Source: Candidatus Nomurabacteria bacterium (lineage in GTDB: Bacteria > Patescibacteriota > Saccharimonadia > Saccharimonadales > Saccharimonadaceae). From it: DNA of 54,814 nt. The notes below the pieces were generated by a model, which saw only the letters and a program-made list of their open reading frames with translations, was not told the origin of the DNA and searched no databases. This document shows positions 9,265 through 12,905 of this stretch, piece after piece. The stretch spans positions 1-54,814 of the forward strand of contig JAIROX010000002.1 in NCBI GenBank assembly GCA_031257295.1, written 5' to 3'. Every line of letters starts with the position of its first letter. Position 1 is the first letter of the stretch. The position numbers were made by a program, and so were the translations under genes.

Positions 9265-11037
9265 ATGAAGAAACGCTCTGAAATCCCGCAAAACTTAAAA
9301 TGGGACATCGAATCGATATACGCCAGCGACACGCTGTGGCAGAAAGACTGCAACAAAGCCGCCGACTTAGCCAGGCAGTTCACTAAGTTTGCCGGCAAGT
9401 TGGTAGATACCAAAACCTTACTATCCGCTCTGCAACTTCGCGATAGCATCTGGCGCATTTGGCAAAAAACCGCCAGCTACGCATACATGCGCCGCGACGA
9501 AGACAATACCAGCGCCAAGTACCAAGCAATGGTAGCCAAGGTGCAGGGGCTGGGCACGGATATTTCCACCAGAATGGCCTTTTTCCGCCCTGAGCTTATG
9601 GAGCTACTTGGCAACAACCTAGAATCACTGTTAAAAGCTGAGCCCGGCCTAGAGCTTTATCGCCATGAGCTTGAGGTGGCTTTACGCAAAAAGCCGCACA
9701 TCCTGTCTGCCGCTGAAGAAGCTGTCGTGGCTGCGCTAGACGACCTAACCGACGGTCCGAGCGAAATATTTGGTATGATAAATGACGCCGACATGGATTT
9801 CGGCAAGGTTAAAGATGAAGACGGCCGAGAGGTTCAGCTAACTCATGGCAATTATGGCCGTTTCTTAGAAAACCACGACCGCGCAGTTCGCCGCGGCGCT
9901 TATGAGCGAGTCTATGAAACTTACCAGCACCAAGCAAACACACTGGCCACTACATACTTTTACGACGTTAAGGGAGATGTTGCCACTAGCAAGCTGCGCC
10001 ACTATCCGTCGGCGTTAGAGCGAGCCTTGAGCGGTGACAACGTGCCGATTAGTGTTTACACAAACCTGGTCGACGCCGTGCATGCCAGTCTGCCAACCCT
10101 GCAAAGATACCTAGAGCTCAAGCGACGAGCCCTAGGGCCTAGTGAGCTTGCGATGTATGACGTATATATGCCACTCGCTAACAGCGAGACACGCAGCTAC
10201 ACTTACGATGAGGCTAAGGAGATCGTTCTTGACGCGTTAGCGCCACTGGGCGAAGAGTATGTTCGCAGTGCTAGGGCTGGGCTTGAATCCGGTTGGGTGG
10301 ATGTGCTAGAAAACGCCGGTAAAACTAGCGGCGCCTACTCTGGCGGATGTTACGACAGCAAACCTTTTATACTGCTCAATTTCAGCGGCCGCCTAAACGA
10401 TGTTTTCACCTTGGCGCATGAGCTAGGCCATTCAATGCACGCATTTTATACGCGCCGCAAGCAGCCGTTTGCCTATGGCGGACATTCAATTTTTACCGCT
10501 GAAGTGGCTTCAACTGTCAATGAGCTACTACTTATGGACCACTTAACCAAGCAAGCTAAGCCAGAGCAAAAGGCCTACTTGCTGGCTCAGCACATTGACG
10601 ACTTTCGCACAACGCTAATTCGCCAAACTATGTTTGCCGAATTCGAGAAACTAACTCACGAGCGAGTCTGGCAAGGCGAAGCCCTAACGGCCGAGTGGCT
10701 CTGCACTGAATATGGACGGCTAAATGATCGTTACTACGGGCCGGTCGTCAAGCCGGATAACTTCATCAAATACGAATGGTCGCGCATTCCACATTTTTAT
10801 CGAGCTTTTTACGTTTATAAATACGCTACTGGCTATTCAGCGGCTACAGCTATTTCTGACTTGGTGTTGCATCACAGTGGTGCTGGTGGTTATATAGAAT
10901 TTTTGAAGTCGGGTGAGTCCGATGACCCGATTGAGCTACTAAAGATTGCTGGTGTCGACATGAGCCAACCCGAACCCGTCACGGATGCTTTGAGGGTCTT
11001 TGCTGGCTTGGTTGATCAGCTAGAAGAACTCCTGTGA
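9265..11037 (+). CDS. pepF: Oligoendopeptidase F (M3B zinc peptidase)
   Basis: 590 aa, the usual family length of ~600. N-terminus MKKRSEIPQNLKWDIESIYAS is the typical PepF start. Zinc motif HELGH at residues 385-389 (catalytic Glu386); the third ligand Glu lies ~28 residues later in FTAEVASTVNE. Cytoplasmic enzyme that cleaves peptides of about 7-17 residues, here likely feeding on imported peptides. The start follows from a -10 box 6 nt upstream. The stop overlaps the next gene's GTG by 4 nt (GTGA). Confidence 0.95.
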   Translation: MKKRSEIPQNLKWDIESIYASDTLWQKDCNKAADLARQFTKFAGKLVDTKTLLSALQLRDSIWRIWQKTASYAYMRRDEDNTSAKYQAMVAKVQGLGTDISTRMAFFRPELMELLGNNLESLLKAEPGLELYRHELEVALRKKPHILSAAEEAVVAALDDLTDGPSEIFGMINDADMDFGKVKDEDGREVQLTHGNYGRFLENHDRAVRRGAYERVYETYQHQANTLATTYFYDVKGDVATSKLRHYPSALERALSGDNVPISVYTNLVDAVHASLPTLQRYLELKRRALGPSELAMYDVYMPLANSETRSYTYDEAKEIVLDALAPLGEEYVRSARAGLESGWVDVLENAGKTSGAYSGGCYDSKPFILLNFSGRLNDVFTLAHELGHSMHAFYTRRKQPFAYGGHSIFTAEVASTVNELLLMDHLTKQAKPEQKAYLLAQHIDDFRTTLIRQTMFAEFEKLTHERVWQGEALTAEWLCTEYGRLNDRYYGPVVKPDNFIKYEWSRIPHFYRAFYVYKYATGYSAATAISDLVLHHSGAGGYIEFLKSGESDDPIELLKIAGVDMSQPEPVTDALRVFAGLVDQLEELL

Positions 11038-11735
11038 GCAAGGTGAAACGCCGTCGCCTAATCGCTGCTTGCGTGGTTCTTGTCGCCGCTGGGTTGTTTA
11101 TATTCCTCCACCCTGCCAACTACCAGCCCGAACCCGAGCCAGCTGCACCAGTAACCACTGCAACAGACGAAAATCTGGCCATCAATGCCCTAAAAAAACT
11201 GCTGGTCAAGCCAAATTCGGCCAAAGAAAAGTATGTTCGTAAAAACTTCGGCAATGGCTGGGGCCAAATTAACGGCTGCGATACGCGCAATGTGATTCTG
11301 CAACGCGATATGACAGATACAAAATTAAACAACTGCCTAGTAATGAGTGGCGTGCTCAACGATCCATACACTGGTAAAGTGATTAGTTTCGTGCGCGGTG
11401 CCGGCACCAGCAGTGCCGTGCAGATTGACCACGTAGTAGCGCTTAGCAACGCCTGGCAAACTGGCGCCTCCGAGTGGGACACAGCAAAACGCGTCGCTCT
11501 AGCCAACGACCCGTTAGAATTATTGGCCGTTGATGGGCCGGCCAATCAACAAAAGAGTGATAAAGACGCCAGCGCTTGGCTACCCAGCAACAAGGGCTTC
11601 ATTTGCCATTACGTAGCAAGGCAAATTACAGTTAAAGCCAAATACCACTTATGGGTAACTCAGCCTGAGCACGATACTATGAGCAGCACGCTTGCTGGTT
11701 GTCCTGGTCAAAAAACTATCAGCTTTGAAAAATGA
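11034..11735 (+). CDS. Membrane-anchored or secreted HNH nuclease (DUF1524/GmrSD-C type)
   Basis: 233 aa, GTG start overlapping the pepF stop. Residues 8-26 form a hydrophobic N-terminal segment (signal peptide or anchor) after KVKRRR, followed by a Pro/Glu linker (YQPEPEPAAP). The catalytic part has VQIDHVVALSNAWQTGA (~130-146), then ANDPLELLAVDGPANQQKSD and DASAWLP, which is the DUF1524 HNH pattern (His-Asn ligand set). Extracytoplasmic DNA/RNA degradation for nucleotide scavenging, or processing of incoming DNA for T4P-driven uptake, are plausible. Co-transcribed with a peptidase. Confidence 0.85.
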   Translation: MSKVKRRRLIAACVVLVAAGLFIFLHPANYQPEPEPAAPVTTATDENLAINALKKLLVKPNSAKEKYVRKNFGNGWGQINGCDTRNVILQRDMTDTKLNNCLVMSGVLNDPYTGKVISFVRGAGTSSAVQIDHVVALSNAWQTGASEWDTAKRVALANDPLELLAVDGPANQQKSDKDASAWLPSNKGFICHYVARQITVKAKYHLWVTQPEHDTMSSTLAGCPGQKTISFEK

Positions 11736-11763
11736 AAATAACGCCACAAGGACGTTACTTTCA
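11728..11763 (-). terminator. Intrinsic terminator of the 11728-11927 RNA
   Basis: Minus-strand stem TGAAAGTAACG/CGTTATTTTCA (11 bp with one G-U) followed by TTTTT. On the plus strand the G-U becomes an A-C mismatch, so it is a minus-strand terminator. It overlaps the 3' end of the plus-strand nuclease gene. Confidence 0.8.
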
Positions 11764-11927
11764 TTCCTGCCGTGAAGACATACTCGCGAACGAGCACACC
11801 TTCCCGAACAGGGTGCTAGGAATAAGTACGCGAACGTAAGTACACCTAGCACGCTGTCCGTGAAGATTTTCACCTTACACTGACAAGCATATTATATAAA
11901 ACTTAAGGTGCCGACCCGAGGGTCAAT
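11728..11927 (-). ncRNA. ~200-nt highly structured RNA, family not recognised
   Basis: No ORF. Promoter TTGACA-17-TAAACT just upstream, terminator at the end. Predicted stems on the minus strand: CACCUUA (11910-11904)/UAAGGUG (11877-11871); a ~25-position hairpin 11859-11806 capped by UUCG with a few mismatches; a 13-bp hairpin 11803-11774, GAAGGUGUGCUCG-UUCG-CGAGUAUGUCUUC split about the loop, fully paired thanks to five G-U or U-G pairs; then the terminator. The G-U pairs are C-A mismatches on the other strand, which fixes the strand. Not matched to RNase P, tmRNA, SRP or 6S signatures that I know. The duplicate UCUUCACGG boxes are a further landmark. Confidence 0.75.
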
Positions 11928-11933
11928 GGGTCT

Positions 11934-11962
11934 AGTTTACAGACTATCCAGCACGCTGTCAA
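11934..11962 (-). promoter_or_regulatory. Promoter TTGACA-17-TAAACT for the structured RNA
   Basis: -35 is the complement of 11957-11962 and -10 of 11934-11939. A second -10-like TATAAT (complement of 11891-11896) lies inside the RNA and could give a shorter form. Confidence 0.65.
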
Positions 11963-11969
11963 CACTTTT

Positions 11970-12905
11970 TTAGTCCAAAACTACAAAGTTATCCACAACT
12001 AGTGCGTTACCTGATACCGAAGCTACGGCTAGGCGCATATCCACCCCTGTTGACTTGTTCGCGTGCGCAAACATCCGTGCCGCCAATTTCATTTTATCTA
12101 ACTTCTTTTTTGTGACCGCCGCCAGGCCGTCGCCTCGCTCGCAGTCTTTTCGGTATTTTACTTCTACAAAAAATAGCGTGGCGTCTTTCTGGGCCACGAT
12201 GTCGATCTCGCAAGCCTTAGTCTTCCAATTGCGCGCCACCACTTCGTAGCCGTGTGCTCCTAGATACTCACAAACCTTCGTTTCTGCCACATCACCTGTC
12301 TGTTTCGTGGTCGGCTTGGCTTTGACACTGGTTCGGGGCTGTTCTTGCAGGCAGGAAAGCGGCTTAAAACTCATTCTGTGCTCACAGCATGGCCCAAGTT
12401 TTTCGATGGCCGCCCGGTGTGCCGCCGTGCCATAGCCAACGTGGCTAGCAAACCCATACCCTGGATACTTTGCGTCTAGCTCGGCCATATAAGCATCCCT
12501 AGCAACTTTTGCCACGATCGAAGCTGCGCTAACAGCCGGAATCAGCTGGTCGGCCTTTTTGAGCGTCGTGGCGAATCTGCCTTTGCTGGTACCCGCTAAG
12601 AAATTAACCGTGCCGTCTATCACGACCTCGTGGTATGGTGCTTTTATCTGCTCCACCGCTCGCCTAGTCGCCAATCTTAAAGCCTCGGAAAGGCCTATAT
12701 CGTCAATTTCTGCCGCCGACACCCAACCAAGCCCCACGCTGGCACCACTATTAAGGATGGCTTGGTTTAGCTCTTCGCGACGCTTTTTAGTTAAAAGCTT
12801 ACTATCAGCCAGACCGTCAACTGTTCCATTCAGAACAACAGCACCTATAACCAACGGACCGGCCCAAGGCCCGCGACCTACTTCGTCAATGCCCAGGATT
12901 GCCAC
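11970..12905 (-). CDS. rnhB: Ribonuclease HII fused to YraN-type (UPF0102) nuclease domain
   Basis: 311 aa. Residues 1-~190 are RNase HII: IDEVGRGPWAGP (catalytic Asp7/Glu8), DSKLLT, VVIDG with a further Asp, and SIVAKVARD. Residues ~205-311 are YraN/UPF0102: GDVAETKVCEYL, EIDIVAQ, FFVEVKYR, i.e. the E/D..EVK core of a PD-(D/E)XK fold. In many bacteria rnhB and yraN are neighbouring separate genes, so this is a fusion of neighbours. RNase HII removes RNA from DNA hybrids and misincorporated ribonucleotides; YraN's role is not established. Lies 4 nt after rplS, as in many genomes. Confidence 0.93.
   Translation of the reverse strand: MAILGIDEVGRGPWAGPLVIGAVVLNGTVDGLADSKLLTKKRREELNQAILNSGASVGLGWVSAAEIDDIGLSEALRLATRRAVEQIKAPYHEVVIDGTVNFLAGTSKGRFATTLKKADQLIPAVSAASIVAKVARDAYMAELDAKYPGYGFASHVGYGTAAHRAAIEKLGPCCEHRMSFKPLSCLQEQPRTSVKAKPTTKQTGDVAETKVCEYLGAHGYEVVARNWKTKACEIDIVAQKDATLFFVEVKYRKDCERGDGLAAVTKKKLDKMKLAARMFAHANKSTGVDMRLAVASVSGNALVVDNFVVLD

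Follow-up and report, generated by a model that had tools for sequence, protein, structure and literature searches.

Architecture of the rnhB–nuclease interval

The window, a 54,814-nucleotide stretch from a Candidatus Nomurabacteria bacterium, carries an RNA element between rnhB and a convergent nuclease gene (Table 1). The order rplS-rnhB-RNA-nuclease is common to the window and to the one genome used for comparison, that of a congener (G001) whose RNA locus also appears in GenBank as JAIRRY010000021.1. The GenBank record, a MAG, is labelled Nomurabacteria, yet it groups with the window's genus, and the label may be wrong. Gene content and genome size would put the window's genome in Saccharibacteria (TM7). 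The nuclease is putatively membrane-anchored or secreted, judging from its N-terminal sequence, and its gene (HNH-type, with a GmrSD C-terminal domain) occurs almost throughout the family, in 350 of 384 genomes. The sequence-only reading had placed here a structured RNA of about 200 nt with a promoter and terminator of its own. The present analysis supports this, and the RNA has no Rfam match. Of the outcomes that the sequence-only reading said would refute it, two, an Rfam match and a lack of compensatory changes in relatives, were checked and did not arise.

Table 1. Features of the rnhB–nuclease interval and its flanks, in window positions.
Feature	Position	Strand	Basis or remark
HNH-type nuclease, GmrSD C-terminal domain	11034..11735	+	PF07510, E 2.2e-15; convergent with the RNA
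Small RNA gene (predicted), ~200 nt	11729..11928	-	Promoter position and terminator; start near 11928 predicted from the promoter, 3' end within the U-run near 11729
Intrinsic terminator hairpin, then UUUUUC	11731..11765	-	Inverted repeat, fold, one compensatory pair
P3 hairpin, UUCG loop	11766..11812	-	Predicted fold; 5' arm CUGUUCGGGAAG invariant
P2 hairpin, UUCG loop	11813..11852	-	Three of five compensatory pairs
P1 hairpin	11853..11888	-	Predicted fold; 3' arm UCUUCACGGACAG invariant
Single-stranded leader	11889..11911	-	Begins with invariant GCACCUUAA (11911-11903), AU-rich thereafter; putative region for pairing
P0, small 5' hairpin UUGACC-CUCG-GGUCGG	11911..11926	-	Fold from the predicted start
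-10 element TAAACT (relative: TATATT)	11934..11939	-	17-nt spacer in both species
-35 element TTGACA	11957..11962	-	Within the 13-nt invariant run AAAAGTGTTGACA, just past the rnhB stop
rnhB fused to UPF0102 (YraN-like) domain	11970..12905	-	PF01351 and PF02021; upstream of the RNA, same strand

The promoter suggested in that reading recurs at the aligned place in the relative (TTGACA-17-TAAACT in the window, TTGACA-17-TATATT in the congener), and sequence-level evidence points to a sigma-70-type promoter conserved between the species. The terminator is likewise conserved; its 13-bp arms are 92% complementary and U-rich sequence lies 3' of the hairpin. A simple terminator scan did not list this terminator. 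A second candidate promoter, TATAAT at 11896-11891, is less likely, having no -35 element and showing only TATATA in the relative. The predicted transcript of the relative is 201 nt long, and its parts match those of the window RNA.

Predicted fold and transcribed strand

The minus strand of 11728-11962 folds at -89.1 kcal/mol (z = -6.07), a stability reached by none of 200 shuffled sequences; the plus strand folds at -69.9 kcal/mol (z = -4.88), and the fold of the relative has z = -8.25. Each species has eight G-U pairs that are compatible with the minus strand only and no A-C pair, and the RNA is therefore the minus strand, in agreement with the strand first proposed. The two long UUCG-capped hairpins noticed at the outset are both present on this strand as P2 and P3. 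Folding from the predicted start gives the relative a small hairpin, GGCCA-AUGC-UGGCC, at the place of P0.

In the window the 3' arm of P1 nearly repeats that of P3 (CCGTGAAGA occurs twice), and the arms can therefore pair in two ways: the 5' arm of P3, CUGUUCGGGAAG, can pair with the 3' arm of P1 or with that of P3. A further element of the sequence-only reading, a basal stem CACCUUA/UAAGGUG, did not survive. The window does contain the two complementary sequences, yet the predicted folds do not pair them; between the species CACCTTAA stays invariant, and its partner changes from GTGTAAGGTG to GTGATAGAT in the relative. The stem was rejected on these grounds, the CACCUUAA side being invariant and the partner side lost in the relative; in the folding model the invariant side is instead unpaired leader.

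Conservation and covariation

The RNA of the relative is 74% identical to that of the window (E 7e-21); for the whole RNA interval the figure is 67%, with 228 bases aligned. At conserved residues, identity of fourfold-degenerate sites is only 32% in rplS, 30% in rnhB and 31% in the nuclease gene, so that silent sites are essentially random, that is, saturated. Against this background the interval retains invariant runs of 13, 13, 18 and 13 nt, namely AAAAGTGTTGACA in the -35 region, TCTTCACGGACAG, AGCACCCTGTTCGGGAAG and GGCAGGAATGAAA.

We tested covariation by taking the minimum-energy fold from each species alone and checking it on the other, with a null in which substitutions were permuted among paired positions in 20,000 trials. 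Changed pairs number 17 (or 15), of which 12 remain standard; five of these are altered on both sides with pairing kept, compared with a null mean of 0.8 (P about 1.5e-4). Broken pairs number five (or three) against 11.6-11.7 expected, and none of the 20,000 permutations gave as few. Differences between the species fall at 22 of 120 paired positions versus 18 of 35 unpaired ones. Three of the five compensatory pairs lie in P2, one lies in the terminator and none lies in P1; the family is known from these two sequences, and what the test supports is the overall fold. Conservation of the gene anatomy, the strand and the fold, selection at the nucleotide level and the lack of a shared reading frame are thus computational results of this comparison.

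Searches for homologues

No Rfam family fits the RNA. At gathering thresholds the one hit was a tRNA in another part of the window, and at E<=10 the sole overlap with the RNA region was a meaningless match to a miRNA model. A covariance model, R1, was built from the two sequences (window and relative). It found no convincing homologue outside the genus in 394 genomes of the family and 393 of the order (overlapping draws, stricter filters), and when run unfiltered on the rnhB and nuclease loci of relatives it yielded no full-length match with a meaningful score. Apart from the two known loci, the genome searches with R1 gave two matches, both discarded, one running across coding sequence (G197) and the other covering the terminator only (G039). 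Among pattern hits, CAIYLG010000030.1 lies inside a cytochrome-type gene at 16.5 bits, and the viral ones have no model match; BLAST against phage and plasmid sequences found none. The RNA is not simply a companion of the nuclease gene, because that gene is present in 350 of the 384 family genomes.

The claim that the RNA resembles no known class thus holds for its family and fails for its layout, which matches ordinary standalone small RNAs (sRNAs) of bacteria. It appears, from its sequence, to belong to a new, previously uncatalogued RNA family of an already known type. A limited search of the open-access literature found no dedicated study on regulatory RNAs of the ultra-small Patescibacteria.

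The unpaired leader and a proposed mode of action

Between P0 and P1 the predicted transcript has an unpaired leader, GCACCUUAAGUUUUAUAUAAUAU. It opens with GCACCUUAA, identical between the two species, in which bases 2-9 have unpaired values of 0.75-1.0 in either species; for the first G, on the border of P0, the values are 0.49-0.63. Alternatively, the stretch could be conserved as a DNA site or as a protein site.

The sequence UAAGGUG stands before start codons at 21 and 25 places, versus 11 and 10 for reversed-pattern controls. No orthologous gene pair with a UAAGGUG-ATG place was common to both species in the one narrow pattern scanned. As a separate observation, ACCTCAAGTTTTATATA, nearly the leader box, occurs at L031:1517-1533 (G000:C1:181317-181333, minus) upstream of a gene for a Fur-type regulator, beside genes for rubrerythrin-like and rubredoxin-like proteins (names read from the sequences). 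No counterpart of this box was found in the relative's genome (86% complete).

Taken together, we read the locus from its sequence as probably, though far from certainly, encoding a standalone regulatory sRNA that has a sigma-70-type promoter and a terminator to itself. Transcription would run leftwards from the promoter just downstream of rnhB and stop at the RNA's own terminator, against the 3' end of the nuclease gene that converges on it. The leader box GCACCUUAA would pair with mRNAs bearing a UUAAGGUGC-like sequence, for example AAGGUG-type Shine-Dalgarno sites, and this pairing would block their translation, while the row of stable hairpins and the terminator would stabilize the RNA. 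We infer the start site, expression, action in trans and use of the leader; as mechanism we consider it most likely, again by inference, that the leader pairs with ribosome-binding sites of the AAGGUG type.

Alternative explanations

The main rival to a base-pairing sRNA is a protein-binding RNA, which, like CsrB or 6S, would use its repeated hairpins to bind or sequester a protein, with no base pairing to mRNAs. We regard it as unlikely but worth serious consideration. In its favour, the RNA is mostly paired, P1 and P3 have nearly repeated arms and the hairpin arms hold the longest invariant runs. It has no repeated loop motif, however, the UUCG caps being stability loops; Rfam gives no 6S or CsrB-type match, and the genome's 6S-like RNA lies elsewhere. 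The likeness to RNAs of the CsrB/RsmY type is one of outline, a chain of hairpins with partly repeated arms. In those RNAs GGA is repeated in the hairpin loops, whereas the loops of the window RNA are UUCG/UUGC, and no Rfam match links them.

The near-repeat arms also bear on a two-state switch, in which a ligand, protein or mRNA would pick the fold and the invariant arms would be frozen by having two partners each. The four arms pair either as 0:1 and 2:3, a chain of hairpins, or as 1:2 inside and 0:3 outside, a Y-shape. Chain and Y-shape lie within 2.4 kcal/mol in the window (-73.3 vs -70.9 kcal/mol) and within 5.4 kcal/mol in the relative (-79.1 vs -73.7 kcal/mol), and covariation in two sequences does not discriminate between them. 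A duplicated hairpin would give both folds automatically. A switch is possible, and we judge it somewhat less plausible still than protein binding.

More doubtful is that the element serves as a terminator or insulator, forming the 3' untranslated end of rnhB with hairpins that prevent collision of convergent rnhB and nuclease transcription. Its location between convergent genes and the terminator at the nuclease end fit such a role, for which a single hairpin would suffice. Nor would an insulator call for runs of 13-18 nt that are invariant, for a -35/-10 pair conserved past the rnhB stop, for a conserved unpaired leader or for strand-specific G-U pairs. Cis-acting antisense regulation of the adjoining nuclease gene is more improbable again: the RNA is convergent with that gene and, in each species, extends as far as its stop codon, but overlap is possible for the last few bases alone, and the nuclease gene is near-universal in the family while the RNA was found in the genus only.

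A small protein gene in place of an RNA gene is hardly credible, since a 74-codon minus-strand frame (11649-11873) and a stretch APCSG...GRNE common to both species in one frame are set against a 4-nt length difference that shifts the frame, the lack of any frame open throughout the element in both species, and substitutions that track base pairing, not codon position.

No more tenable is the idea that this is the lineage's 6S RNA, too divergent for Rfam. The length of 200 nt, the long paired rod and the standalone gene would suit it, and Rfam 6S has no match in this genome: the RF00013 covariance model matched neither the RNA region nor the rest of the genome at E<=10. Synteny contradicts the idea. 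Three relatives give RF00013 matches, at 28.8-35.4 bits and hence below the cut-off of 46.4, and in every case the match is flanked by an M50 protease gene on one side and a NUDIX-RNase H gene on the other; alignable sequence sits at that place in this genome and the congener. The window RNA also has no large central bubble, its fold being P1-P2-P3 or a rod with small mismatches. An identity as RNase P RNA was rejected, that RNA being located elsewhere in this genome.

The M50/NUDIX-RNase H interval is an observation in its own right. In this genome and the congener the alignable sequence there contains conserved blocks such as CACCCACCT; the divergent 6S-like RNA loci are L173:1334-1490 (G000:C4), L172:2335-2545, L090, L091 and L092. 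RNase P RNA lies on the far side of the NUDIX gene, near the 6S-like RNA, and this proximity of a divergent 6S-like RNA to the RNase P RNA gene may be more general.

Comparison with known RNAs

As a standalone sRNA, the window RNA would be a well-supported case, its sequence kept where silent sites have reached saturation, and so a concrete target in a genome of 0.75 Mb, with a possible entry to that genome's sRNA regulon. Among known systems, 6S RNA (RF00013) is likewise standalone, about 200 nt long and mostly paired; it differs in its large central bubble, which the window RNA does not have. The window RNA has no sequence relation to any Rfam family. In layout it is like the standalone intergenic sRNAs of bacteria, which have their own promoter, a length of 100-250 nt, a single-stranded leader, stable hairpins, an intrinsic terminator and no reading frame.
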